In this document: positions 8,060 through 34,533 of the stretch, piece by piece | How the letters are laid out: every line of letters begins with the position of its first letter | How positions within the stretch are numbered: the first letter of the stretch is position 1 | DNA from: Candidatus Melainabacteria bacterium | Lineage (GTDB): Bacteria > Cyanobacteriota > Vampirovibrionia > 2-02-FULL-35-15 | DNA: 43,823 bases | Assembly: GCA_016201905.1 (NCBI GenBank) | Contig: JACQBQ010000037.1 | Location: 1-43,823 of the forward strand | Reading direction: 5' to 3' | Position numbers and translations under genes: made by a program | Notes under the pieces: generated by a model | Told to the model about the DNA's origin: nothing | The model's input: only the letters and a program-made list of their open reading frames with translations | Databases searched by the model: none

Positions 8060-9637
8060 TCAAGTAAAAAGCCTTTGCTTAAATTCCTTAACTATCTTTT
8101 CAGCCTCTTCTACCCTTAATGTTAATGCCATGCCAAAATAAACAAGTAGGCAAGCTGAGCTACTGCAAAATATGAGGATGGCTTTAGAAAAGAAGTCATA
8201 GTTCTTAAGATATACAGGGAAAAGTTCTAAGAACAATAAACCAAATAAGTACATTACAAGAGTTGCAGTGCTAAGTTTTAAAAGAGGCCTTAAATGCTTT
8301 ATCCATCCAAGACAACCGATTTTTTTTCTAAGTAAAAATAAAAGCAATAAGAAATTAAACCCAGTAACAATTGAAGTACTAAAAGCTATTCCAGGAGCCT
8401 TGAATTTTTCTACTAATACACTATTTAAAAAGATTTTAAGAAGTATTGAAAATACAGCTACAAGAAGAGGAAGCTTTGAGTCACCCAGCGAATAAAAAAC
8501 TCTTGTCAATGTGTCTCTGGCTACATAGGCTATCATTGAAAGTAAAAGTGCTACTAATATACTGCTTGTAAGCAGGGTAGATCTTTCATTAAAAGCTCCC
8601 CTCTGGAAAACGATTTCAACAATTGGTTTTGAAAATAAATATAAATATACTGCTATAGGTAATGTTAAAAACCAAAGAGATCTGATTACTAGAATACAAG
8701 TTTGTTTTAAACCATCAAAGTTTTTAGCGTGTGCTAGCTCTGAAAAGCGTGGAAAAAACGGTACTAAGAAAGATGTAAGTAAAACCCCAAGAGGCAGTTG
8801 AATTAATCTATTTGCAAGTACTGTTGCTGTCCAGCTTCCTTCCTGTAGTCCAGAACAAAAAAAGCTGTCTATGTAGACAGTTATTTGCCCAATTGTTGTG
8901 CTTAAAAGAGCAGGACCAAGGAAATGAAAAAATTCCTCTACTGCTTTTTGATTTTGGGTGAAAGAAAATTTTAAGTTTTCATATAGACCAGCCTTAATAA
9001 GATCAGGTAGCTGTACTATAAGCTGTAAGATTGCGCCTATTAAAGTCCCTATGCCAAGCGCTAATCCAAGCATAGGATCGCCATATGCAAAAACAAAAAT
9101 TATAATTGCAATGCTTGGTAAAACAGGACTGAATGAAGGCCAAAAATAACTACCATAGACATTTGATACCCCACATAAAATTCCAAGTAGACCAGAAATT
9201 ATAATTAATGGAGACATAATCTGTAGCTGAAGTGAGGTTAAGTGCCACAGTTTGTTTTGATATTCAGGGCTTAAACCTGTTGCCGGCACAAGCAAGTGGA
9301 CAATCTGATCTTTTAGGCAAATTACAAAAAGTGTAATTAAAACAAGTACAACAAAAGTATAAGTGCATGTCCTTATTAAAAAACTGCCTGACTCTTTTGC
9401 ATTGTCTTTAATTTTTGTAAGCGTACTTATTGTGGCTGAATGAAAAGGACCACCAAGTCCGCCAAGTAAAACAAGAGCGTTTCCAGTTAAAAGATAAGCA
9501 AAATTATAAGCATCAGCAGTAATTGTAGTGCCAAAAACTTTTGCAATTACTAAGTCTCTAAGTAGTCCAAAAATCTTACTGATAATAGTAATTATTCCTA
9601 CAAAACCAACGATTTTAAATAATTTACGATTTGACAT
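8060..9637 (-). CDS. murJ: Lipid II flippase MurJ (MviN)
   Basis: This 525-aa polytopic membrane protein of the MOP superfamily has about 14 hydrophobic helices. Family features are visible: the start SKIFGLLRDLVIAKVFGTT, the TADAYNFAYLL segment, QITVYIDSFFCSGLQEGSWT in the central cavity region, NRLIQLPLGVLLTSFLVPFF, and a C-terminal RDTLTRVFYSLGDSKLPLLV. MurJ moves undecaprenyl-linked peptidoglycan precursor across the inner membrane. Length matches the family. The gene is monocistronic, and a GTCATTGC repeat lies just upstream of its start. Confidence 0.95.
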   Translation of the reverse strand: MSNRKLFKIVGFVGIITIISKIFGLLRDLVIAKVFGTTITADAYNFAYLLTGNALVLLGGLGGPFHSATISTLTKIKDNAKESGSFLIRTCTYTFVVLVLITLFVICLKDQIVHLLVPATGLSPEYQNKLWHLTSLQLQIMSPLIIISGLLGILCGVSNVYGSYFWPSFSPVLPSIAIIIFVFAYGDPMLGLALGIGTLIGAILQLIVQLPDLIKAGLYENLKFSFTQNQKAVEEFFHFLGPALLSTTIGQITVYIDSFFCSGLQEGSWTATVLANRLIQLPLGVLLTSFLVPFFPRFSELAHAKNFDGLKQTCILVIRSLWFLTLPIAVYLYLFSKPIVEIVFQRGAFNERSTLLTSSILVALLLSMIAYVARDTLTRVFYSLGDSKLPLLVAVFSILLKIFLNSVLVEKFKAPGIAFSTSIVTGFNFLLLLFLLRKKIGCLGWIKHLRPLLKLSTATLVMYLFGLLFLELFPVYLKNYDFFSKAILIFCSSSACLLVYFGMALTLRVEEAEKIVKEFKQRLFT

Positions 9638-9652
9638 TTGACTTACGGTTAT

Positions 9653-9687
9653 GTCATTGCTTCGTCACTATCGCTCCTCGCAATGAC
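9653..9687. repeat. Short GTCATTGC...CAATGAC palindromic repeat
   Basis: GTCATTGC at 9653 is matched by the inverted GCAATGAC at about 9680-9687, with a core containing TTCGTCACTATCGCTCCTC. It belongs to the same dispersed family as the copies at 11777, 12328, 23126, 26543 and 33589. This is the shortest form with a degenerate left arm. Confidence 0.7.
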
Positions 9688-9745
9688 GCACATAGTTTTA
9701 TTCTCTTTTTGTAACACACCTTTAATAGATTATAATTAATTAAGT

Positions 9746-9773
9746 TTGTCGTTCATTAAAGTTAGAATATAAA
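9746..9773 (+). promoter_or_regulatory. Likely promoter of the yqeG-like gene
   Basis: TTGTCG at 9746-9751 and TATAAA at 9768-9773 are separated by 16 bp. The -10 box ends 9 nt before the ATG at 9783, so the leader would be only a few nucleotides long. Confidence 0.4.
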
Positions 9774-9782
9774 TTGATACGA

Positions 9783-10274
9783 ATGTTTCCATTTCTAAAA
9801 CCAACACTAATATATAACGATGATGTGACTAAAGTTCATATTGATGAACTTAAAAAACTCAATATAAATGGTTTAATATTAGATCTGGATAATACAATTA
9901 TGGCTCCAAAGACAGCCAGACTTGACCTACCGGTAAAATATTGGCTGGAAGTTATGAAGCAAAATTTTAAAATAGTAGTTTTAACAAACAATAAAAAAGC
10001 ATTTTACCTGGAAGCAGTACGGCAAGTTTTAGAATTACCTGTAATTGGTTTTGCAAAAAAACCCTGGTCAGTTGGAATTAAAGAAGCGCTTGAAATTTTA
10101 AATTTACCCAATGACAATATTGCAATTATTGGAGATAGGCCTTTGACAGATATCTGGCTTGGACAAAGATATGGATTTAAAACTATTTTAGTGAGAGCAT
10201 TAACTGCTCATATCGAACCTAAATGGAAATATTTTCTGCGGAAGTTAGAATGGTCCTTTGTGAAAAAACAATGA
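9783..10274 (+). CDS. YqeG-family HAD IIIA-type phosphatase
   Basis: This 163-aa HAD-superfamily protein has motif I as LILDLDNTIM (D34, D36), motif II as VVLTNN, the conserved lysine in GFAKKPW, and motif III as IAIIGDRPLTDIWLGQRYGF. The start MFPFLKPTLIYNDDVTKVHIDEL is typical of the YqeG family, which occurs in Firmicutes and Cyanobacteria and is related to phosphatidylglycerophosphatase GEP4. The substrate is not shown by the sequence. A TTG at 9774 in frame is a possible alternative start, but the ATG matches the family. The last codon overlaps the arginase-family gene start (ATGA). Confidence 0.88.
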   Translation: MFPFLKPTLIYNDDVTKVHIDELKKLNINGLILDLDNTIMAPKTARLDLPVKYWLEVMKQNFKIVVLTNNKKAFYLEAVRQVLELPVIGFAKKPWSVGIKEALEILNLPNDNIAIIGDRPLTDIWLGQRYGFKTILVRALTAHIEPKWKYFLRKLEWSFVKKQ

Positions 10275-11248
10275 AAAAAAACATTTCAATAATCCTTGCA
10301 CCTTTTTCAATTGGCGGTCCAAATAACGCTGCCAAAGATGGTCCTCAAGCTTTGATGAGTAATAATGTTGATGATGATTTGAAAGAGTTAGGTTTTAATG
10401 TAAAAATTATAAGACCACCTAAAAACCTCGGCACTTTAGCACATAAGCACATAAACACATTGACACATAAGCACATAAGCACTATCAAAAATATTGATTC
10501 AATTGTAAAAATAAATAATTGGTTATCAACTACTATTGCAAGTGAAATTAAAAATGATTCTATTCCGCTAACTATTGGCGGGGATCACAGCTTAGCAATT
10601 GGCACGATAACTGGAACAAGTGATGCACTTGGAAATATTGGGGTCTTGTGGATAGACAGGCACTTTGATGCACACTCGCCTAAAAATACTCCATCTTGGA
10701 GGGCTCATGGCATGCCTGTTGCAGTCCTTGCAGCAAATAAAAATTATGATCTCCATCCTGATTTCCAGAACTTATTGTCAATCGGGAAAAGTAACAGATT
10801 GCCAAAAGTAAAACCAGAAAACTTTGTTCAAATTGCAATTGGTGAAAAAAGCCATATTAAGCCAAATACGAAATGGTATTCAATGGAGTACATTGACAAT
10901 GTTGGAATTAAAAAAGTAATTGATGAAGCATTAAACTATCTTTTAAAAAGAGTTAAACATGTTTATATTGCATGGGATATAGATTCTATGAATGTAACAG
11001 GTACAGGTACAAGCGGTGATAGCCAGCTTACTTTAAGGGAAGGGCTTGTAATCGCAAGAGAAATAAATAAAAAAATAAGATTGGCTAACAGGTTAGCAGG
11101 CTTTGAAATTATGGAAGTAGCTCCAAAATTAGAAAGAAAAGATTTAAGAGGTCAGACTGTTGACTGGGCAATTCAGCTTGTGACTACTTGCTTTGGTGGA
11201 AATTTATTTAATAATTTATCTCGTTTAAAAAGAAATATTCATGTATAA
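10271..11248 (+). CDS. Arginase/agmatinase/formiminoglutamase family hydrolase
   Basis: This 325-aa ureohydrolase-fold enzyme has the binuclear Mn ligands: H106 in GGDHSLAIGT, D129-x-H131-x-D133 in WIDRHFDAHSP, and D236-x-D238 in YIAWDIDSM. The C-terminal FEIMEVAPKLE also fits. The second conserved residue of the DAHxD motif is R (IDRHFD), and the usual DPxxxPGTGTP motif reads MNVTGTGTSGD, so it diverges near the substrate site. Arginine to ornithine plus urea is the best guess, with agmatine or guanidino acids as alternatives. Residues 57-72 are an in-frame histidine-rich tandem repeat. The ATG at 10271 overlaps the phosphatase stop, so an earlier ATG at 10223 is not the start. Confidence 0.88.
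   Translation: MKKNISIILAPFSIGGPNNAAKDGPQALMSNNVDDDLKELGFNVKIIRPPKNLGTLAHKHINTLTHKHISTIKNIDSIVKINNWLSTTIASEIKNDSIPLTIGGDHSLAIGTITGTSDALGNIGVLWIDRHFDAHSPKNTPSWRAHGMPVAVLAANKNYDLHPDFQNLLSIGKSNRLPKVKPENFVQIAIGEKSHIKPNTKWYSMEYIDNVGIKKVIDEALNYLLKRVKHVYIAWDIDSMNVTGTGTSGDSQLTLREGLVIAREINKKIRLANRLAGFEIMEVAPKLERKDLRGQTVDWAIQLVTTCFGGNLFNNLSRLKRNIHV
10440..10478 (+). repeat. In-frame tandem repeat inside the arginase-family gene
   Basis: The 15-nt unit CACATAAGCACATAA occurs at 10440-10454 and again at 10464-10478, a period of 24 nt. It encodes two 8-residue units, AHKHINTL and THKHISTI. The repeat lies between the first strand and the GGDHS motif, probably in a surface loop. Confidence 0.75.
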
Positions 11249-11257
11249 TATTTATAA

Positions 11258-11755
11258 ATGAAAATCAAAGCAAAAGATAAAACCATTACCGATAAGCAAG
11301 AGATCAAAGTTTTTTTAGAAAAATATGGTCTCTATGCTGAGTTCTGGCAGCCAGAAACTACTGATAAGTCTACTTCTGAGCCGCTTATCAGATATAAAAA
11401 TCAAATTGAAAAATTAAAAAAGAAGTTTGGTTATTCATCAGCAGATGTTTGTGCAATGAGTCATGAAACAGCAAACTTAGATAAGATGTTAAATGCTTTT
11501 GTAAAAGAGCATCATCACACAGATGATGAAGTTAGATTTACTGTGGAAGGCGAAGGGATATTTGGAGTAAATCCATTAACCGATCCATTATTTGAGGTCT
11601 ATGTTCAGCCAGGAGATTTGCTTGTAGTGCCGGCTAATACAAGACACTGGTTTAATTTAACAGATAAAAAAAATATTTGTTGCATAAGGATCTTTAAAGA
11701 AAACCCTAAGTGGGAAGCTGTTTATGAAATGCCTAAAGAGCATATAATCAGCTAA
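11258..11755 (+). CDS. mtnD: Acireductone dioxygenase (methionine salvage)
   Basis: This 165-aa cupin enzyme oxidises 1,2-dihydroxy-5-methylthiopentene to 4-methylthio-2-oxobutanoate plus formate (Fe form). The metal ligands H85, H87 and E91 lie in EHHHTDDEVRFTVEGEGIF, and H130 in VPANTRHWFNL. It starts nine bases after the arginase-family stop on the same strand, but it functionally belongs with mtnB, mtnX and mtnW downstream, which run the other way. Length is typical. It ends before a long palindromic repeat that separates it from mtnB. Confidence 0.95.
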   Translation: MKIKAKDKTITDKQEIKVFLEKYGLYAEFWQPETTDKSTSEPLIRYKNQIEKLKKKFGYSSADVCAMSHETANLDKMLNAFVKEHHHTDDEVRFTVEGEGIFGVNPLTDPLFEVYVQPGDLLVVPANTRHWFNLTDKKNICCIRIFKENPKWEAVYEMPKEHIIS

Positions 11756-11776
11756 GTTTTTCGTGTAACTACTCGC

Positions 11777-11899
11777 GTCATTGCGAGGAGGCTCTAAAAG
11801 AGCCGACCCGCTCCGCCAGCAGAGCGAGGCGAGCGTGGCAATCTCCTAACGTTTGTGAGATTGCTTTGTTGTCCGCTTAGGCGGACTCTTCGCAATGAC
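11777..11899. repeat. Long GTCATTGCGAG palindromic repeat between mtnD and mtnB
   Basis: The element is bounded by GTCATTGCGAGGAGG and TCGCAATGAC (about 123 bp). It contains internal inverted pieces such as GAGATTGCTT and the palindrome GTCCGCTTAGGCGGAC, and a GC-rich core (GACCCGCTCCGCCAGC) unlike the surrounding AT-rich DNA. It fills most of the gap between the convergent mtnD and mtnB stops and is the same size class as the copy inside ligA. Confidence 0.85.
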
Positions 11900-11927
11900 A
11901 TAGAAAGATGAAATTACTCCTGAGCAG

Positions 11928-12635
11928 TTACATTTTTTCTAATGCAAGTTCCTTCATCCTATACTCAAACAAAAACTCAAAAATTTCTACATGCCTCTTT
12001 GCTTCTTGTGGTGATTTTCCCCAAGCATAAATACCATGGCCTTTTAAAAGTAATCCTGGTACGTCTTCGTTTATATAATTTGGTGCAATGGTTGCTAAAT
12101 ATTTCATGTCCTGGCTGTTTTCAATAATAGGGATAGTTATTTTTACATCGTGAGTTTTAAGGCCAAGTCCTTTTAGCATTTCTAAATCTGAAAAAATAAT
12201 TTTGTCTCCTGATTTCATGGATAAAAGAGTACTGTTTGTAGTGTGAACATGAAAAACTGCTTTTGCACCAACGTGTTTATAGATAGCACTGTGTAAAAGT
12301 GTTTCAGCAGAAGGTTTTACGCTTGATGTGTCATTGCGAGCCGAAGGCGAAGCAATCCCAATCGAGATTGCTTCGTCGCTATTGCTCCTCGCAATGACAC
12401 CACTTTCATTCACTAAAATAAAATCATCTTCTGTTAATTCACCTTTATCTTTTCCACTAACTGTAATTAAAAATTGAAGAGGATTTTCTTCAATTAAAAT
12501 TGAAAGATTTCCTGATGTACCAAGCATCCAGCCTCGCTGATAAAAACTTGTACTGACTTTAATTAATTCACTTTTTGTCTGATCAAGCTTTACGTCTTTA
12601 TTTATTTTTCTTGTTGTATTTATTTGACTTGTCAT
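11928..12635 (-). CDS. mtnB: Methylthioribulose-1-phosphate dehydratase with an in-frame repeat insertion
   Basis: This 235-aa class II aldolase-type enzyme of methionine salvage dehydrates 5-methylthioribulose-1-phosphate to 2,3-diketo-5-methylthiopentyl-1-phosphate. Zn ligands are visible as H129 and H131 in VFHVHTTNST and H200 in LLKGHGIYAWG, with the conserved KPSAETLLH at 107-115. GTSGNLSI (39-46) is the phosphate-binding stretch. Residues about 80-104 (VIARSNSDEAISIGIASPSA and following RNDTS) are the translation of a palindromic repeat and have no counterpart in the family; without them the protein has normal length. The reading frame is intact on both sides. Confidence 0.92.
   Translation of the reverse strand: MTSQINTTRKINKDVKLDQTKSELIKVSTSFYQRGWMLGTSGNLSILIEENPLQFLITVSGKDKGELTEDDFILVNESGVIARSNSDEAISIGIASPSARNDTSSVKPSAETLLHSAIYKHVGAKAVFHVHTTNSTLLSMKSGDKIIFSDLEMLKGLGLKTHDVKITIPIIENSQDMKYLATIAPNYINEDVPGLLLKGHGIYAWGKSPQEAKRHVEIFEFLFEYRMKELALEKM
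12328..12400. repeat. GTCATTGCGAG palindromic repeat inserted inside mtnB
   Basis: The inverted ends are GTGTCATTGCGAG (12328-12340) and CTCGCAATGACAC (12388-12400), perfectly complementary over 13 bp. Inner arms AAGCAATCCCAATCGAGATTGCTT are also inverted. In the mtnB frame the element reads VIARS... and contains no stop codon. Confidence 0.9.
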
Positions 12636-12739
12636 TGTTAGTTATTTTATCAAAGATTCTTAACGTAATTTGGTTTTTGACTTGTTATATTGTATTTAGT
12701 TTAAATAGAGGATGAATTTAAAGGACAATAAGAAAATAA

Positions 12740-12745
12740 GGAGAA
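12740..12745 (+). promoter_or_regulatory. Strong Shine-Dalgarno of the first lipoprotein paralogue
   Basis: AAGGAG about 7 nt before the ATG at 12752 fixes the start. Upstream, TTGACT at 12677-12682 is a good -35, but no clear -10 lies 16-18 bp downstream of it. The same AAGGAG motif precedes 13546, 15136 and 15872. Confidence 0.6.
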
Positions 12746-12751
12746 AAATAT

Positions 12752-13525
12752 ATGGGAAGTTTGGCTGTTAAATTGGGAACTGCAGTTTTAGCAGGGGTTA
12801 TTCCATTTGGGGCTGCAGGATGTAAAGGCAAACAAGAGATGCAAGAAACAGCGCAAGTACAGAAAGTTAAACACTTTTCTGAAATTTTTCCATTTAAGAG
12901 AGATGAAAATACTGGAAAGGTATTTGTTGGTAAAGAAGAAAAAAAATTTTTAATAATCAAAACTAATCAGGAACATCCATTCTATCCATATGATTTAGAA
13001 AATCTAGATAAATGGCAAAAATTGTTTAATCAAAATGCTAATAAATTAGAGCAAATAGAAATCAATGCTGCTAATATTCTTTCTTCATTGCCAAAACACG
13101 GAGAACAAAATATTATTTTTCCGAATAATTTTTATGATCTTTCTACACTTGATGCACTAATTAGTAAAAGTGTTTGTCTTAACATGAAAGAAGAAGTAAA
13201 CCTAGTGGTCTTTCCAGTAGCTAGTTTTAAGGATGGTAGTAGGAGACCTCTCGCATTAACTCTAGAGAAGAGTTTTGAATTTATGCCTAATTCGTTAGCT
13301 CCTAAATTCTATTCATATGATTCACATAATAACTTAGGTGGGTACGATCAAGTAGGAACTGGTATTAGCTTTAAAGTAGAAAATAAAGCAACTAACCTAA
13401 CACTTAATTTAACTGCCCCCTTAGAAAATCTTCCACTTATAATAACGACTGAAAACAAAATGTATTTAATTGGACTAGATAAGGTAGATGTTCAAAAAGG
13501 GAATTTAGAAGTTAGTATTCGTTAA
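12752..13525 (+). CDS. Putative lipoprotein, mtn-locus paralogue A1
   Basis: This 257-aa protein belongs to no family I recognise. The N-terminus MGSLAVKLGTAVLAGVIPFG is a hydrophobic export signal followed by AAGC, a plausible though non-canonical lipobox. It shares two motifs with A2 and A4: after the signal VKHFSEIFPFKRDENTGKVF, and near the C-terminus LPLIITTENKMYLIGLDKV. The centre (residues 75-200) is variable. It is probably exported and anchored by lipid. It starts a plus-strand pair with A2, 20 nt apart, between the minus-strand mtnB and mtnX. Codon composition looks like that of its neighbours. Confidence 0.75.
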   Translation: MGSLAVKLGTAVLAGVIPFGAAGCKGKQEMQETAQVQKVKHFSEIFPFKRDENTGKVFVGKEEKKFLIIKTNQEHPFYPYDLENLDKWQKLFNQNANKLEQIEINAANILSSLPKHGEQNIIFPNNFYDLSTLDALISKSVCLNMKEEVNLVVFPVASFKDGSRRPLALTLEKSFEFMPNSLAPKFYSYDSHNNLGGYDQVGTGISFKVENKATNLTLNLTAPLENLPLIITTENKMYLIGLDKVDVQKGNLEVSIR

Positions 13526-13545
13526 TTAAAGGAGAAGCAAACCTC

Positions 13546-14376
13546 ATGAGACCAATTATAAAACTAGGTGCAGCAGTTTTAGCAAGCATTCCATTGGCAA
13601 CAGTAGGATGTACTGACAAGAACGCTGATAAAGCTAATATTGTTTCAAATGAACCATACTCTGATATAAAACATGTTTCAGAAATATTTTGTTTTAAAAG
13701 AGATGAAAAGACCGGAAAGATTTTTATTGAAGAAGCAGAAAAAGATCATAGAAGACTAAGTTACGCGGTCCATAACCTTAAATTACTTTGGCAGGAAATT
13801 GACATGTTGAAGTCATGGACTAATGAATTTAATAAAAGAGCAGAAAAGCTAGAACAAAGAGAAATAAAAGTTAGTGATTTAACTCCTCCTAGTGTTCTTA
13901 ATACCACTAAGTTTAATCCTAAAGATACCCAAACCCTGAAAAAATTTGATGTATTAAATCCCACGTATTTTTACGACGTATATCCATTTACAAATCCTAC
14001 AAAAGGAGAGGAACTTAGCTCTAATATCCCAGTTGTACGAGCTGATGGTAAAGATTTTTCATATTTGTATACTGCATATGCTGCATACAATAGAAATATA
14101 CCTCTTTCAATATCAATACCGTCACAGTATTTCATTCCTGAGTCTATTACTCGTAAGCACTATCTGAATATACCTCGTTATGGCTCTTCTAATGATAAAG
14201 AACTTGAAGCAAAAGAAGGAATTTATTTTATTGCTAAAGGAAAAGTGAGAAAAGTTGAAGTAATAGTTCCATTAACTAGTCTTCCATTAGCTATAGATAC
14301 AGGCAAAGAAATGTATTTGATTGGTTTAGATAAAGTAAATGTTAGCAACGGTAATCTTGGAGTAGTTAAGCGATAA
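13546..14376 (+). CDS. Putative lipoprotein, mtn-locus paralogue A2
   Basis: This 276-aa protein starts MRPIIKLGAAVLASIPLATV followed by GC, an export signal and possible lipobox (TVGC). It has the family's first motif as IKHVSEIFCFKRDEKTGKIF and the last as LPLAIDTGKEMYLIGLDKVN, close to A1. The middle contains LEQREIKVSDL, comparable to LEQIEINAANI in A1. An AAAGGAG ribosome site precedes the ATG. The stop codon abuts the stop codon of mtnX on the other strand with no spacer. Function is unknown; an envelope location is inferred from the signal. Confidence 0.75.
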   Translation: MRPIIKLGAAVLASIPLATVGCTDKNADKANIVSNEPYSDIKHVSEIFCFKRDEKTGKIFIEEAEKDHRRLSYAVHNLKLLWQEIDMLKSWTNEFNKRAEKLEQREIKVSDLTPPSVLNTTKFNPKDTQTLKKFDVLNPTYFYDVYPFTNPTKGEELSSNIPVVRADGKDFSYLYTAYAAYNRNIPLSISIPSQYFIPESITRKHYLNIPRYGSSNDKELEAKEGIYFIAKGKVRKVEVIVPLTSLPLAIDTGKEMYLIGLDKVNVSNGNLGVVKR

Positions 14377-15042
14377 TTACACTGCTTGTGTTAGCTGCTC
14401 TTTAATGTCGTCAAATGTTTCAAATCGAATATGATTTATTTTTTCTTCATTTAAGTACTTAATCAAATCTCCTCTTGCAAATACTACATCTGCAATCTTT
14501 GAAGCTGCCAGATCTGTTAAAGAATCCCCGATTAAAACCCTTGTAAACTTATCTTTTGGATAATTTTCAATAATTTCAATCTTACAGCAGCCACAATCCC
14601 CACATAAAGTACAATTCTTAGGCAAATATTTATAATCAATTTTTATTTTCTCAGATTTGAAGTTTCCCGAATTGCAGAATATTTTTAATTTGTTTTTATA
14701 ATTCTCAAGCACTGCTTCCACGAAAAAATCTAATCCACCGCTAAGTACATTAAACTCAATATTTTCTTTTTTACAGAAATCCAGAAAATCAACAAAACCT
14801 TTTCTGAGTTTAGCCTCTTTCTTTGCAAAGCCTATAATTTCATTTTGTTTACTGCTGTCTATCAGGCTAAAAAGTTTTTCAACACCATCTTTTAATGTAA
14901 TTACCCTTTCATAGAGTATTTTGTTTTTTATTTCTTCCCATTCTGGCGGAGCAAACCTTTCCATAATCATTACTATTACATCGCGCTCAGTGATAGTGCC
15001 GTCGAAGTCTGAGAATATTGCTAGCTTTTTATTTTTAATCAT
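14377..15042 (-). CDS. mtnX: 2-hydroxy-3-keto-5-methylthiopentenyl-1-phosphate phosphatase MtnX-like
   Basis: This 221-aa HAD phosphatase has motif I SDFDGTITERD (D12, D14), motif II VLSGGLDFFVE, and motif III RVLIGDSLTDLAASKIADVVFARG. The segment ERFAPPEWEEIKNKILYERVITLKDG is typical of MtnX/PSP-like proteins. It also has a cysteine cluster CTLCGDCGCC, an extended form of the cysteine pair region found in MtnX. In methionine salvage it removes the phosphate produced by MtnW to give the acireductone consumed by MtnD. It lies between two blocks of plus-strand lipoprotein genes rather than next to mtnW or mtnB. Confidence 0.88.
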   Translation of the reverse strand: MIKNKKLAIFSDFDGTITERDVIVMIMERFAPPEWEEIKNKILYERVITLKDGVEKLFSLIDSSKQNEIIGFAKKEAKLRKGFVDFLDFCKKENIEFNVLSGGLDFFVEAVLENYKNKLKIFCNSGNFKSEKIKIDYKYLPKNCTLCGDCGCCKIEIIENYPKDKFTRVLIGDSLTDLAASKIADVVFARGDLIKYLNEEKINHIRFETFDDIKEQLTQAV

Positions 15043-15100
15043 GAATTGACACTAATTCCTTCTGTATGAACCATTTGCACATGTTATATTATCTACTAAT

Positions 15101-15106
15101 TATAAT
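15101..15106 (+). promoter_or_regulatory. Possible -10 box for the A3-A4 block
   Basis: TATAAT at 15101-15106 lies upstream of the AAAGGAG site and ATG of A3 (15136). A TTGCAC at 15075-15080 is 20 bp away, longer than usual, so the -35 is uncertain. Confidence 0.35.
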
Positions 15107-15135
15107 TAAGTACGATTTTAAAAGGAGAAATTATT

Positions 15136-15831
15136 ATGTCCATGCCAGTTAAATTAGGAACAGCACTTCTTAGCGGGGTAATTCCATTTCTTGCTCCTTA
15201 TGGAAATCAAAAATGCCCTGTTGGAAAAGTTCAAGAAGTAAAATTAGAAAAAACTTCAACCGTCAATTCACCAAGTGACTTTTTAAGATTTACCTACGAT
15301 GAAAAAACAAGTAAAGTTTTACTTACTATTGCTCCTGAAAATGAAATTAAGGCATATTTCGAAAAAAACAAATTAGAAGGCTTTAAAGATGCTATTGGAG
15401 AATGTGAAAATGAAGTTAAAGTATATCCTATTTTTACTTCATATTTAAAGCATGTCGTTTTAACACTAAAAGATAAAACTAATGAAATTATTCCTAATGA
15501 TAGAAAAATTTTACGCCCAAGTCTTGCAGAATCTAAAGCACATAGTTGTCTTGTAGTATCACAGCCATTTAAACAGCCACCACAAGGAATAATTTGTCTA
15601 GAAGCACCAACAAATTTTGTAGATATAGACTCACTTGCAATAAGAAAATATAAGGGAAAAGATGTTCTTAGTTTTAATATGAAAAGGGTTTGGCCAAAAC
15701 TTGATGAGAAGACACGTAAAGTAGTAGAAGATGTTCAAGAGGGAACCATTGTTTTACCTCGTGATTTTCACTTGGTAATCACAAAAGGTGATACCGCACA
15801 CTTTGTAATAAACAATTCAAAAAAGAATTAA
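15136..15831 (+). CDS. Exported protein, divergent mtn-locus paralogue A3
   Basis: This 231-aa protein begins MSMPVKLGTALLSGVIPFLA, nearly the same leader as A1 and A4, but the rest has diverged. Traces of the family remain as SDFLRFTYDEKTSKVLL (compare SEIFPFKRDENTGKVFV in A1) and a C-terminal LPRDFHLVITKGDTAHFVIN. Unlike the others there is no cysteine right after the leader (the first is in NQKCPVG), so it may be cleaved by signal peptidase I or stay membrane anchored. A strong AAAGGAG precedes the ATG. Function unknown. Confidence 0.7.
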   Translation: MSMPVKLGTALLSGVIPFLAPYGNQKCPVGKVQEVKLEKTSTVNSPSDFLRFTYDEKTSKVLLTIAPENEIKAYFEKNKLEGFKDAIGECENEVKVYPIFTSYLKHVVLTLKDKTNEIIPNDRKILRPSLAESKAHSCLVVSQPFKQPPQGIICLEAPTNFVDIDSLAIRKYKGKDVLSFNMKRVWPKLDEKTRKVVEDVQEGTIVLPRDFHLVITKGDTAHFVINNSKKN

Positions 15832-15871
15832 TGGTTTCCGGTTAAACAAATTATATTAAGGAGAAATCATC

Positions 15872-16702
15872 ATGTCTATGTCAATTAAACTAAGAACAGC
15901 AATTTTAGCAAGTGTTATTCCATTTGCTAGTGGTTGTAGCGTCTGTAATAATGACAATCCAGCTGATATAAAACCGGTTGAAGTAAGAAATGAATTACCT
16001 AAAGTTACTCATTTAAGTGAAGTTGTCCAGTTTAAAAGAGCTCCAGAATCTAAAAAACTTTTCTTAGAGTGGAGTCGAGGTAAACAAAATGTGCAAAATG
16101 ATCTAAAAAATCTTGGATTAGATGAACAGGATAGAATTGAATTTGCTTTATGGCAAGCACAATTTAATAGAAAATCAAAAACATTCGAGAATAAAGAAAT
16201 AATAATTAATAATTTACCTAGTCCAGTAAGAAATAATGACATTCCTGATTTAAATGATAATGACTCTCTAAAAAAGCATGGAGTGATGATTCCGGACATA
16301 CATTCTCATAACTCTCCTTTTGTTAATCCATTTATGAATGCACTTCCAAATGATGTTTTAAAAGAAAAAAATTACTTAATCCTTCCAGTAAGCAGTGATT
16401 CTAAAGGTAGAAGAATTTTACCAGTTGCAATAACACTAGGAGATAATTTTAAATTTCTGCCAGATTCAGTGCACCTGAGCGACTATTTAGACGAGTCTAT
16501 TCCAACTGAAAAAAAATCAATAAACTTAGGATTGTATTTTGAAGTACAAGAAAAAGGAGGAAAGAATAGAAAATTACATGCAGTGGTTCCTCTACGGAAC
16601 ATGCCGCTAGTAATTGAGGCAGAAAATAAAATGTATATTTTTGCTTTTGACAAAATCGATGGAATTAATGAAGGTGAGAAGAAATTTTACTTGCCTAGAT
16701 AA
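15872..16702 (+). CDS. Putative lipoprotein, mtn-locus paralogue A4
   Basis: This 276-aa protein starts MSMSIKLRTAILASVIPFAS followed by GCSVC, an export signal with lipobox-like ASGC. Family motif 1 is VTHLSEVVQFKRAPESKKLF, and the C-terminal motif is MPLVIEAENKMYIFAFDKID. The middle has ILPVSSDSKGRRILPVAITL, which matches VFPVASFKDGSRRPLALTL in A1, so A1 and A4 also share the central part. It has an AAGGAG ribosome site, lies 40 nt after A3 and 12 nt before the 60-aa gene. Its role is unknown. Confidence 0.75.
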   Translation: MSMSIKLRTAILASVIPFASGCSVCNNDNPADIKPVEVRNELPKVTHLSEVVQFKRAPESKKLFLEWSRGKQNVQNDLKNLGLDEQDRIEFALWQAQFNRKSKTFENKEIIINNLPSPVRNNDIPDLNDNDSLKKHGVMIPDIHSHNSPFVNPFMNALPNDVLKEKNYLILPVSSDSKGRRILPVAITLGDNFKFLPDSVHLSDYLDESIPTEKKSINLGLYFEVQEKGGKNRKLHAVVPLRNMPLVIEAENKMYIFAFDKIDGINEGEKKFYLPR

Positions 16703-16714
16703 AAGTAGAATTTT

Positions 16715-16897
16715 ATGATTAAACCAATAGTGACTAAAGCAGGACTTGGAGCAATAGCATTTGGAGCTGGTGCCTTACTGTATGTTGGCATGGCGAAATT
16801 GGACATGCATGTTGGGAAAAAACCAAGAGAAGTGAAGCCATCAATAGAATTAAAAAAGAATGTTCAAAATAAAGATATAAAAAATCTTCAAAAGTAA
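16715..16897 (+). CDS. 60-aa single-pass membrane protein downstream of A4
   Basis: The peptide has a glycine/alanine-rich transmembrane helix near its start (GLGAIAFGAGALLYVGMAKL) and a lysine-rich tail (KPREVKPSIELKKNVQNKD). It follows A4 by 12 nt and is likely co-transcribed. The tail probably faces the periplasm or cytoplasm as a charged anchor. No family is recognised, and it is short enough that expression is not certain. Confidence 0.55.
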   Translation: MIKPIVTKAGLGAIAFGAGALLYVGMAKLDMHVGKKPREVKPSIELKKNVQNKDIKNLQK

Positions 16898-16916
16898 GTA
16901 GGAACCCACCTTAGTT

Positions 16917-18044
16917 TTAGCTTGATCTTGGACTTACTAAGTTTAAACTTTCAACTTCTTTTATAAACTCTTTAGCTCCAGCTAAGCCACCATCTTTGTG
17001 CTCCCAGACAGCTGTTCCAGCATTAATAACTATATCTTCACCGAAGTCAAGGATAATTTCTTTTACCATATTTGCTTTAATTCCCGCTGATGGAACAGGC
17101 CATGAGGGTTTTATATGAATAAGTGGTTTAGTAAGCTCTTTATTAATACTAAGAACAATATTTTTTTCCCATGACAATGATCCATATTGACTTGGAAATA
17201 AAACAAAATCTGCACCTGCTATTCTTGGCAGTTTAGCTAGAAGAAGCTGTTCACTTAAACCAGACGTACTGCCCATGCATATAGCACCAGCAAAGGCTGG
17301 ATGAGCCATTATCGGTATTGAAACCGTTTGCCTGAGAGAGGTTAGCAAAGGTAAACCGTATGAAACATAATTAAATAAAATACAAAGAGCTCCATTTTTT
17401 TCAAGCTGAACTGCACGATCTAAAATTTCATTTGCTTGTCCAGTTAAGTTAATGGCATAGATTGTTTTTGCTTTGGCTTTTTCTTTTGCACCTAAACATG
17501 CTTCAAGTCTTTTTAAAGTCTGATTAAAATCCTTGTCATATAATATTTCATCGTCTTTAACTATGTCTATTCCAGCTTCTGCTTGCTCGTAAAACATATT
17601 TCCTAATTCACCGTGAGAAAGTCCAAGGCAGGGTTTAAAGATGCTCATTAGCAAAGGCTTTTCTTTCTTTCCTAATTGATCTCTTATCCCGCTTATTCCA
17701 AACCTTGGTCCTTTAAAAAGATTTAAATAATTTTGTGAAAACTCTATATCTTCAAGCTTGATTTTTGGGACTAAACTTATTTTTCCATATACTGCAGTTA
17801 ATAATGCGCCAAGATCACTTCCAAAGTTTTCTATAGGAAATGCAATTTTAACTGTAGAAGTAAAACTTGATTCTTCAATTGAAACGACTTCAGCCAGGTG
17901 TTTTGAAATCTGGAGTCTTACATTTCCTGAAAGCTCATTCCATATGCCTATTGTTTGTCCGACAGCAATATTATGAGCTAATTTTTTTATGTCCCGGCCA
18001 TCATTTTTTATCGTATAAACTACATTAATCATATCTTTTGGCAT
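16917..18044 (-). CDS. mtnW: RuBisCO-like protein, 2,3-diketo-5-methylthiopentyl-1-phosphate enolase
   Basis: This 375-aa protein is in the RuBisCO large-subunit superfamily. It has the loop K137 in LMSIFKPCLGL, the metal-site motif K163-D-D-E166 in GIDIVKDDEIL with the lysine that is carbamylated in the family, H248 in MAHPAFAGA, and the phosphate-binding IKPSWPVPSAGI and INAGTAVWEHKDGG segments. With mtnX, mtnB and mtnD close by it is best read as the MtnW enolase of methionine salvage and not a CO2-fixing enzyme. A good ribosome site AGAGGGAG is 7 nt upstream of the ATG. Length is slightly below that of typical MtnW. Confidence 0.92.
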   Translation of the reverse strand: MPKDMINVVYTIKNDGRDIKKLAHNIAVGQTIGIWNELSGNVRLQISKHLAEVVSIEESSFTSTVKIAFPIENFGSDLGALLTAVYGKISLVPKIKLEDIEFSQNYLNLFKGPRFGISGIRDQLGKKEKPLLMSIFKPCLGLSHGELGNMFYEQAEAGIDIVKDDEILYDKDFNQTLKRLEACLGAKEKAKAKTIYAINLTGQANEILDRAVQLEKNGALCILFNYVSYGLPLLTSLRQTVSIPIMAHPAFAGAICMGSTSGLSEQLLLAKLPRIAGADFVLFPSQYGSLSWEKNIVLSINKELTKPLIHIKPSWPVPSAGIKANMVKEIILDFGEDIVINAGTAVWEHKDGGLAGAKEFIKEVESLNLVSPRSS

Positions 18045-18090
18045 TGCTTATCTCCCTCTAAAGAACTAAATCAGGTTACGATCATTAATT

Positions 18091-19632
18091 GTGATTAGAA
18101 TTATTGTTTTTATCATTTTACTCCTTTTTTGCATTAACACTGTAAGTGCGATTACAGAATATGAACAGAATTTAAAGCAAAGCCAGAAAACATATTTGAA
18201 TTATTTTGATTTAGTCCAGTTAAGTAAAACCTCAAACCCTCAAGGAGAATTGCTTCAAAAGTTAGAGCAGCAATTAAACTTGCCGATAATTTACCAACCC
18301 CTGCAACTACTAGTAAGCTTCTTACATGATGATACTCTGGGTGATTATTTTAGAGTTGCTTCGTGGAATATAGAACGTGGGTTTAATGTAGATAGAATCA
18401 TTCAGATACCAGAATATTCATTTGATTCTAAGACCAGTGAAAAACTAAAAGAAGAATTAGAGGTTTTTTCTAAGGCAAGCATAATTATTTTAAATGAGGT
18501 TGATCTTGGTATGCCAAGAACAGCCTACAAAAATATAGCAGAAGAGATAGCTCGTGTTTTTAAGATGGGATATATTTTTGGTACTGAGTTTATTGAAGTT
18601 GATCCTTATCAATTAGGGGTAAACAAGTTTTCAAAAGAAGAGAAATTATTTTTAGAGGATAAAGCTCTGAAAGAACTTGATAATATTGATAAAAATAAAT
18701 ATCGAGGCCTACATGGAACAGCTATTCTTTCAAAATACCCTATATTGAATGCAAAAATTATACGACTGCCGGTTTGCTATGAATGGTATAGAGCTGAGTC
18801 GGACAAGCTTTCAGCACTTGAGTTTGTCAGGAGGAAAACTGCTCAGCAAATCTTCAGTGAAAAAATATTAACAGAATTGAGACACGGGAACAGGATGGCA
18901 ATAGTTGCTGACCTGCTTTTGCCAAATAATCAGATAATAACAGTTGTGGCAACTCATTTAGAAAATAGATGTGTACCAAAATGCCGCTGTAAGCAATTTG
19001 AGTTTCTCTTAAGCAGGCTGAGAAACATTAAAAACCCATTAATTCTTGCTGGTGATTTCAATACAACAGGTACTGATACAAGCCCAGTTAGTGTAAAAAA
19101 AGAAATCCTGAAATTAGCAAAAGACCCTGATTTTGTCCTTAACAACATAATTTTTACAATAACACCGCTAACACTTGCACAAAATGTGGTTTTAAATACT
19201 ACAAATTTTTTAAAGCAATATAAAGATCCAACAACAAAGCATATTCCTATACTATTTCCAAATAAAGAAAGAGAACTTTTTGATCTTTTAAAAGAATTTA
19301 GATTTAATGATGGTGGAGCATTTGATTTAAGAGGAACATCTGGAAAAACATACAGAGGGCATGATGGACTTTTAAGTAATTCAAATGAAAGAGATGTTAA
19401 GGGTTTTAAATCAACTTTTGAATTAGAAAGGTACTTTGGTATCGCTAGGTATAAATTAGACTGGTTTTTTATAAAACCATTAAATTTAAAAACTCCAAAT
19501 GATAAAAATAGCTCTTATGCATATGCTCCATACTATGGAAAAACCCTGCAAGAATTAAATAGAAGTTTTGGAGAAATTTCAGATCATGATCCTATTATTG
19601 TGGATATACCTGCTGGAGAGCCATTACGTTAG
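18091..19632 (+). CDS. Secreted endonuclease/exonuclease/phosphatase-fold protein
   Basis: The 513-aa reading frame begins with GTG and a signal peptide (MIRIIVFIILLLFCINTVSA). The EEP (DNase I-like) catalytic motifs are present: SWNIERGF, IIILNEVDLGM with the metal-binding glutamate, TAILSKYPI, VVATHLENRC, LAGDFNTTG, KLDWFFIKP, and the terminal ISDHDPIIVDI. The region between FNTTG and the KLDW motif is unusually long (about 115 residues). The substrate may be nucleic acid, phosphoinositide-like lipid or another phosphodiester and cannot be told from the sequence. It is divergent from mtnW. Confidence 0.85.
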   Translation: MIRIIVFIILLLFCINTVSAITEYEQNLKQSQKTYLNYFDLVQLSKTSNPQGELLQKLEQQLNLPIIYQPLQLLVSFLHDDTLGDYFRVASWNIERGFNVDRIIQIPEYSFDSKTSEKLKEELEVFSKASIIILNEVDLGMPRTAYKNIAEEIARVFKMGYIFGTEFIEVDPYQLGVNKFSKEEKLFLEDKALKELDNIDKNKYRGLHGTAILSKYPILNAKIIRLPVCYEWYRAESDKLSALEFVRRKTAQQIFSEKILTELRHGNRMAIVADLLLPNNQIITVVATHLENRCVPKCRCKQFEFLLSRLRNIKNPLILAGDFNTTGTDTSPVSVKKEILKLAKDPDFVLNNIIFTITPLTLAQNVVLNTTNFLKQYKDPTTKHIPILFPNKERELFDLLKEFRFNDGGAFDLRGTSGKTYRGHDGLLSNSNERDVKGFKSTFELERYFGIARYKLDWFFIKPLNLKTPNDKNSSYAYAPYYGKTLQELNRSFGEISDHDPIIVDIPAGEPLR

Positions 19633-19682
19633 TGCTATAATTTTTAATTAATCATCAAACATTTACAAGGAGGTTTTTCTTT

Positions 19683-19865
19683 ATGGCAAATAAAGTATCA
19701 GGACTAAATTGTAGTTATGATTTAAGTAACAAATCATTAGCTAGAGCATATGAAAAGGCTCTTCGGAATCGAGAACACAGAAGAAACGTAAGAATAGCTG
19801 AAGAAGGTTTGAAAGAATTAGAAAAACTGGCCTTAGAATGGGTAAGAAAAAATAAAAAAAATTAA
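19683..19865 (+). CDS. 60-aa basic helical protein
   Basis: A near-perfect ribosome binding site (ACAAGGAGG) precedes the ATG. The peptide is largely charged and helical (ARAYEKALRNREHRRNVRIA and EEGLKELEKLALEWVRKNKK). It has no membrane segment. It may bind nucleic acid or another protein, but no family is recognised. Its TAA shares bases with the convergent leuD stop. Confidence 0.6.
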   Translation: MANKVSGLNCSYDLSNKSLARAYEKALRNREHRRNVRIAEEGLKELEKLALEWVRKNKKN

Positions 19866-20389
19866 TTATGTTGTTTTTCCCAGGTTCTAACTTTGTTTAT
19901 CTTACTTTCCATATATTTCAAAAACCCACCCTTTAAAATAAACTCTTTTTTTAGAGGATCAAGATCAAATTTAAACAATTCTCCATCGACTGTTTTTACA
20001 ACTTGATTTACAACGTCTATCTCGCACTCTGATTGCTTAAACAATTTTTCTATTTCATTTGCTTGTAGTTTTACTGGCACTAAACCATTGTTATAACAAT
20101 TCTCTTCAAAGATTCTTGCAAAGCTTACTGCAATTACTGCTTTAAAGCCTCTATCCATAATTGCCCAGACAGCATGTTCGCGTGATGAGCCACACCCAAA
20201 ATTTTCTCTTGTTAAAAGAACCACAGCATCTTTGTATTTTAAATCGTTAATCGTAGTATGGGGAACATCTTCAAGTAAATGAACTCCGTAACCAGATTTT
20301 GTAATTCCAGTAAGATGACGGGCAGGTATTATTTGATCAGTGTCAATGTTTGAGCGATCTAGAGGTAAAATTTTTCCTTTTATAATCAT
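19862..20389 (-). CDS. leuD: 3-isopropylmalate dehydratase small subunit
   Basis: This 175-aa protein is of the short archaeal/thermophile-like LeuD type (leucine biosynthesis; also similar to homoaconitase small subunits). It has RSNIDTDQIIPARHL at its start, the YGVHLLED loop, and the substrate-loop motif LLTRENFGCGSSREHAVWAI. It pairs with LeuC to isomerise 2- to 3-isopropylmalate. The start codon overlaps the leuC stop (TAATG). The YG..LL loop and lack of a lysine biosynthesis neighbour favour leucine synthesis, but a related hydro-lyase function cannot be excluded. Confidence 0.93.
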   Translation of the reverse strand: MIIKGKILPLDRSNIDTDQIIPARHLTGITKSGYGVHLLEDVPHTTINDLKYKDAVVLLTRENFGCGSSREHAVWAIMDRGFKAVIAVSFARIFEENCYNNGLVPVKLQANEIEKLFKQSECEIDVVNQVVKTVDGELFKFDLDPLKKEFILKGGFLKYMESKINKVRTWEKQHN

Positions 20390-26528: not shown

Positions 26529-27026
26529 TTAAAATGCTATCGCGTCATTGCGAGGTTGCTCCTCGCAATGACGTTTAAAGTCATCTTTTCCAAGCATGTA
26601 TGCTTTAACCAAACGTTTACCTAAAAAGAAATTATTATACATTTCTTTAATATGTGAGCTTACTTCACCACCTACATCTATAGTGCATGCACGCAAAAGT
26701 CTTACAAACTCTCTATAATGCATAAAGTCGTTTTTTTCAAAATAATCTTTTAAATAATTAGTGAGATAAGTTTCCAGTTCTTCTTCTTTTATATCCCTTT
26801 TGTTTTTTTTATCTTCTTTGCCAAGGTTATAAACCAGTACAAATCTCATACTTTTTCTTGCATTGTCAAAACATCTTTTTAAACTTGAAGATAGAGCACG
26901 ACTTTTTCCTTTAACAATATTCAAATAATGATCAAGATCTTTTAAAACATCTTTATCTATTGAATCTGACAGTACCTTATCTACAAGCTCAAATTCTTTA
27001 GTGTTTTCAAGGGTTAAATCATTCAT
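26529..27026 (-). CDS. 165-aa hypothetical protein with a repeat-derived C-terminus
   Basis: The protein is helical and charged, with no signal or membrane segment. Typical stretches are LKDLDHYLNIVKGKSRALSS and LETYLTNYLKDYFEKNDFMH. I do not recognise the family. The last 14 residues, RHCEEQPRNDAIAF, are the translation of the palindromic repeat at 26543-26573, so the original C-terminus was replaced or extended by the element. Upstream of the start there is no Shine-Dalgarno. Confidence 0.65.
   Translation of the reverse strand: MNDLTLENTKEFELVDKVLSDSIDKDVLKDLDHYLNIVKGKSRALSSSLKRCFDNARKSMRFVLVYNLGKEDKKNKRDIKEEELETYLTNYLKDYFEKNDFMHYREFVRLLRACTIDVGGEVSSHIKEMYNNFFLGKRLVKAYMLGKDDFKRHCEEQPRNDAIAF
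26543..26573. repeat. Minimal GTCATTGCGAGG hairpin repeat
   Basis: CGTCATTGCGAGG and CCTCGCAATGACG form a perfect 13-bp stem with a 5-nt loop (TTGCT). This is the shortest complete copy of the repeat family. It encodes the end of the 165-aa ORF. Confidence 0.9.

Positions 27027-32286: not shown

Positions 32287-34533
<2,247 letters not shown>

Follow-up and report, generated by a model that had tools for sequence, protein, structure and literature searches.

How did the genes of an mtnWXBD-type operon come to be interleaved with genes of the opposite strand, and do these have a part in methylthio-sugar metabolism? The question is raised by a 43,823-nt contig of a Candidatus Melainabacteria genome (2.28 Mb, 99% complete), referred to below, at its whole length, as the window; the order concerned is represented by 11 genomes, all of one family. 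The first-pass annotation had read mtnW, mtnX and mtnB on the minus strand with mtnD inverted, and had placed A1 and A2 between mtnX and mtnB, and A3, A4 and a 60-aa ORF between mtnW and mtnX, all on the plus strand. The gene map and family assignments agree with that arrangement, and the frames of enzyme and inserted genes alike are intact.

The mtn genes and their arrangement in relatives

The features of the locus are as follows.

11258..11755, plus strand: mtnD (acireductone dioxygenase), PF03079 (ARD family) E 5.7e-33, convergent with mtnB
11928..12635, minus strand: mtnB, TIGR03328 E 2.5e-58, over cutoff; own ATG start; in-frame palindromic element at 12330-12398
12636..12751, no strand: mtnB/A1 divergent spacer, with promoter-like TTGTTATATT and an SD before A1, as read from sequence
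12752..13525, plus strand: A1, an orphan-family gene for a predicted exported lipoprotein with lipobox-like AAGC; paralogue of A2/A4
13546..14376, plus strand: A2, an orphan-family gene for a predicted exported lipoprotein with lipobox-like TVGC; its stop abuts the mtnX stop
14377..15042, minus strand: mtnX (HK-MTPenyl-1-P phosphatase), TIGR01489 over cutoff; PRK09552 E 4e-73, best full-length match
15043..15135, no strand: mtnX/A3 divergent spacer; its homologues are the mtnX/G8x spacer (G008) and the sequence that precedes G9a (G009)
15136..15831, plus strand: A3, same promoter/signal module with a different body; paralogue on contig C28 of the same genome (42% identity, E 7e-48)
15872..16702, plus strand: A4, an orphan-family gene for a predicted exported lipoprotein with lipobox-like ASGC; best relative G9a of G009 (33%, E 5e-43)
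16715..16897, plus strand: 60-aa ORF, a possible gene, with no Pfam/NCBIfam match over cutoff; relation to the family unproven
16917..18044, minus strand: mtnW (RuBisCO-like DK-MTP-1-P enolase), PRK09549 E 2e-113; still the first gene, on the original promoter side

By profile matches, W, X, B and D are all present and of the right families for a Bacillus-type mtnWXBD operon; MtnW and MtnX fall below strict equivalog cutoffs, yet these are their best matches over full length. The distance between X and W is 1874 bp, filled with opposite-strand genes, and W-X-B-D are not contiguous on one strand. That W-X-B(-D) is the Bacillus operon order was verified on fetched Bacillota loci: 75 of 77 mtnX loci from outside the order (nearly all Bacillota) have W-X-B in order on one strand, and among all 80 fetched loci only the record of G005, itself of this order, has a W-X gap above 300 bp. 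The nearest mtnX outside the order is that of Brevibacillus (48%). The window locus thus shares its enzymes and W-X-B order with the operon of Bacillus, Brevibacillus and Geobacillus, but differs in having mtnD inverted and W, X and B separated by opposite-strand genes; in its relatives, moreover, mtnB appears to start at ATT.

Within the order, six of the nine other mtn-bearing genomes (G001, G002, G003, G004, G006, and G009) keep W-X-B contiguous, the W-X gap being -4 to 55 bp, and the operon is interrupted in 4 of 10 (the window genome, G005, G007, and G008). G010 lacks W, X, B, and D and has mtnA. The operon is thus contiguous in the relatives where the paralogues are missing (G001-G004, G006), as it is in Bacillota. 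A wider block is largely conserved around mtn: murJ, HAD, arginase, mtnD, mtnB, mtnX, mtnW, an endonuclease-like gene, leuD, leuC, and patatin. Since mtnD is convergent with mtnB also in G003, G004, G005, and G007, its inversion is real but common in the order, and no part of the operon disruption. G001 has a mtnD remnant near mtnB (L065, G001:C3:165267-165356; 79% over 29 aa) and an intact mtnD ∼5 kb away. Elsewhere in the block, leuC and leuD are split by unrelated opposite-strand ORFs in G006 and G007 (L040:10429-11574; L041:12987-13526), by eye one ATPase-like ORF and one Kazal-like exported ORF. The mtnA profile match of the window genome (L196/L198, G000:C33:2290-3369) is interrupted in frame, possibly by a palindromic insert.

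All nine other mtn-bearing genomes lack an ATG, GTG or TTG upstream of the conserved MtnB motif GWM(L/M)GT(S/A)GNLS. At the homologous position they have a conserved ATT after an SD-like stretch, which in most of the nine overlaps the mtnX end (L035-L044), and their mtnB appears to be initiated there; an ATT start is documented for infC of E. coli (PMC5472188). An ATG start is found only in the window genome, in which A1-A2 lie between the two genes mtnB and mtnX.

An orphan family on the mtnX side

The inserted genes had been taken to be related to each other. For A1, A2, and A4 this holds along the entire body (27-32% identity, z 13-17). A3 shares with them only a module comprising the promoter region, the SD and the first ∼24 residues, its body having no detectable relation to A1, A2, or A4 (z 0.3-3.3; body-only profile E 0.37); against A4, for example, it shows 52% identity in the signal region and nothing detectable past it. 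The 60-aa ORF has no blastp match to the family. Their description as lipoprotein cassettes likewise suits A1, A2, and A4, which match a PS00013-like signal peptide pattern with a lipobox cysteine and are thus predicted lipoproteins; A3, which has no lipobox cysteine, and the 60-aa ORF do not match the pattern. A3 groups with its contig C28 paralogue (100%), so a tandem duplication of a two-gene cassette from A1A2 to A3A4 is rejected. A transposon or IS cassette is rejected too, no transposase, terminal repeats or target duplication being found at 11200-18200.

The genes belong to a rare, fast-changing and previously undescribed protein family of Melainabacteria that is restricted to this order. 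It has ∼15 members in the 11 genomes, the number at which iterated profile searches stay: four in the window, two elsewhere in the same genome (C25 and C28), two in G005, three in G007, two in G008, and two in G009. A further match on the genome's own contig C32 is marginal at E 0.004. In a sample of 386 genomes of the phylum, members occur in three, all within this order, and in none elsewhere. Homology of the body beyond the signal region was found for A1, A2, A4, G9a/b, C25, G8x/y, G5x, G7x, G7c16, and G5c58; with signal regions removed and 513 decoys included, G7y is borderline (E 0.002) and A3/C28 are not significant. This comparison rests on 11 draft genomes, among which divergent relatives could be missed.

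The same family recurs beside mtnX in three further genera. G005 has one ORF opposite to the mtn strand between X and W and G007 has two; in G008, two opposite-strand ORFs lie beside mtnX, with mtnW and the other neighbors on another contig. Run against 263 ORFs, a profile built from A1, A2, A4 and both G009 genes placed most of these mtn-flanking ORFs directly behind the known members. Conversely, a profile of the G005/G007 subfamily, built with no signal peptide and no window sequence, retrieved from 11 whole genomes, besides itself, only G8x (E 7e-9) and G9a (E 9e-5). Seven opposite-strand ORFs lie at X/W or on the mtnX side, and every one is a family member by body or 5′ module (G7y borderline). 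Under random placement, members in the two mtn slots of at least two genomes, at ∼2000 slots per genome, would be expected with P ∼8e-5, a figure that ignores shared ancestry; an operon split in 4 of 10 genomes by one rare family argues that the link is not chance.

The association is nonetheless incomplete. Nine of the 15 members are at mtn, in four genera, but six are elsewhere (C25 and C28, one each in G005 and G007, and both in G009), and five mtn-bearing genomes have no member. The dispersed members are surrounded by an efflux pump and a tRNA-like sequence, by polysaccharide genes (by eye asnB, a nucleotidyltransferase and a dTDP-sugar dehydratase) or by orphan genes, and none is near mtnA. 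G5x, G7x, G7c16, and G5c58 have no export signal. The targeted or repeated cassette gain proposed earlier accords with an association that is far from random and recurs in three other genera, although the members elsewhere show that it is not exclusive to mtn.

Constant starts, a shared spacer and a fossil of mtnX

Nine members have a common N-terminal signal region, and among these the first ∼24 residues average 49% identity, as against 26% for the rest; the signal region is more conserved than the body in 35 of 36 member pairs. The usual pattern for signal peptides is the reverse. Conservation extends upstream. Two regions align with the mtnX/A3 spacer, namely the mtnX/G8x spacer of G008 (z 8.1) and the stretch that precedes G9a in G009 (z 5.7), scores reached by 0 of 200 shuffles in either case. 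The sequences upstream of G8x and G9a are nearly identical along 70 bp (z 20.5), within a continuous block of 155 bp (81% identical) that begins inside mtnX and ends inside the signal peptide. The A3 spacer has no match in those of the X/W copies of G005 and G007, and these copies, except G7y, lack an export signal. Within the window, TGTTATATT occurs only twice, before A1 and before A3. In a scan of the whole region, promoter-like sites are no more numerous than in shuffles, terminator counts are likewise not above shuffles, and Rfam yields no match within 9500-20000.

G9a (L084:5877-6700) lies in a polysaccharide-type locus away from mtn. It is preceded, on the opposite strand and continuous with the spacer, by the first six codons of mtnX (MNQYKK), which read ATGAATCAATACAAA; the corresponding start in G008 is MNQYK. 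Because mtnX of G004, a genome without insertion, also starts MNQ-K, the codons before G9a look like native mtnX codons, and this 5′ remnant points to an mtnX-flanking origin of G9a, or of its 5′ part. Replacement of the G009 mtn operon by transfer is rejected, as G008 stays with G009 in the trees of both mtnW and mtnX.

Two independent insertions had been proposed. Within the window genome these are likely; across the order, parsimony and the spacer evidence point to different numbers of events. On a six-gene tree, whose deep nodes are weakly supported (60-70%), parsimony gives three changes at X/W, and placing the carriers as a single clade, on one side of a split, is marginally rejected (AU p 0.0485). 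Given the A3/G8x spacer match, either the two lineages have a homologous mtnX-side position or the spacer moves along with its gene. The match argues for fewer gains; if there was one gain only, precise losses restoring a W-X gap of a few bp must be assumed in several lineages.

Accounts of the split operon

We favor, with confidence a little above even, the reading that a diversifying orphan family, equipped with a divergent promoter, established itself upstream of mtnX and so split the operon, its tie to mtn being positional. An ancestral mtnW-mtnX-mtnB operon would have been entered upstream of mtnX by genes of this small, order-restricted family, the inserted unit consisting of a promoter, an SD and a signal-peptide start followed by a variable body. 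As the unit points away from mtnX, the common spacer would have to serve as promoter in both directions, driving the inserted gene on one side and mtnX, now detached, on the other. The two genes seen in three of the four genomes (A3/A4, G7x/G7y, and G8x/G8y) would have come by gain in tandem or by repeated gain. The window genome would have acquired another pair, between mtnX and mtnB, and from then on its mtnB would start at an ATG of its own, where relatives have an ATT near the mtnX end. At least one copy, G9a with its mtnX 5′ remnant, would have moved to another locus. Those members that bear a signal are probably envelope proteins that are undergoing diversification. The synteny, the homology, the common spacer, the mtnX fossil and the different mtnB start are observed, while the sharing of a promoter, the direction of movement, selection and the cellular role are inferred.

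Other accounts of the same layout were weighed. Although all the genomes are MAGs or draft assemblies, mis-assembly or mis-binning of contigs is highly implausible, as four separately assembled genomes share a similar layout with conserved flanking synteny and intact frames. The X/W junction might instead tolerate insertion or be prone to recombination, so that genes arrive there independently of one another, with no special tie to one family. Such a hot spot would fit the opposite-strand, lineage-specific genes that also split leuC/leuD in G006 and G007, the three parsimony changes, the repeated palindromic inserts in mtnB and the unrelated Q-rich ORF adjoining the mtnW side in G008; but the leu inserts are unrelated, whereas seven of seven opposite-strand ORFs at the mtnX side or X/W come from one rare family (G7y borderline), and we consider this account unlikely.

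The functional link to methylthio-sugar metabolism suggested at first is less probable still. Exported proteins that bind, transport or sense methylthio-compounds could be kept at mtn for co-regulation, and it is true that the same operon was hit in four genera and that G010, the sole genome without mtnWXB, also has no family member. Yet five mtn-bearing genomes do without one, and the six members elsewhere, none of them at mtnA, together with the subfamily that lacks export signals, leave such a role unsupported. Searches by sequence of Pfam, NCBIfam, PHROGs and the PDB gave no match for the family, and Foldseek comparison of two AlphaFold models of moderate confidence (pLDDT 71.5 and 68.2) with the PDB and a viral library gave no fold match, to a binding protein or otherwise. 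The lack of a homologue of known function, the missing signals and the neighbors of the dispersed members favor an association with mtn that is most likely positional, through the divergent promoter and inheritance at a tolerated site, rather than enzymatic.

A bolder reading, to which we give a modest chance, is a modular diversifying system of exported proteins, with constant promoter and signal peptide and exchanged bodies, whose home locus upstream of mtnX has repeatedly broken the operon and seeded copies carrying mtnX fragments. If true, a diversification system for exported proteins would have its home in a central-metabolism operon. Break-up of operons by lineage-specific (ORFan) genes is a general phenomenon, and the present case resembles it in having foreign ORFs inside a conserved operon with flanking genes intact. 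What sets it apart is the recurrence of a single rare family at the same junction in four genera, together with a common divergent spacer and a displaced copy to which a piece of mtnX is still attached; the break-up of an ancient operon by orphan genes can here be traced through the states that preceded and followed it, a change of start codon and a molecular fossil of movement.

Inserts of another kind occur in mtnB. A palindromic repeat, GTCATTGCGAG...CTCGCAATGAC (hairpin z -7.4), lies in frame in mtnB (12330-12398) and in ligA (33589-33711), with further sites at 26544-26572 and 11777-11899 of the window. Inserts of this kind occupy the same MtnB loop in G004 and G008 and a different loop in G007 and G001. 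In its behavior the insert inside mtnB is like the Rickettsia palindromic elements (RPE), which are in-frame palindromic inserts; the likeness concerns mtnB, not the inserted genes.
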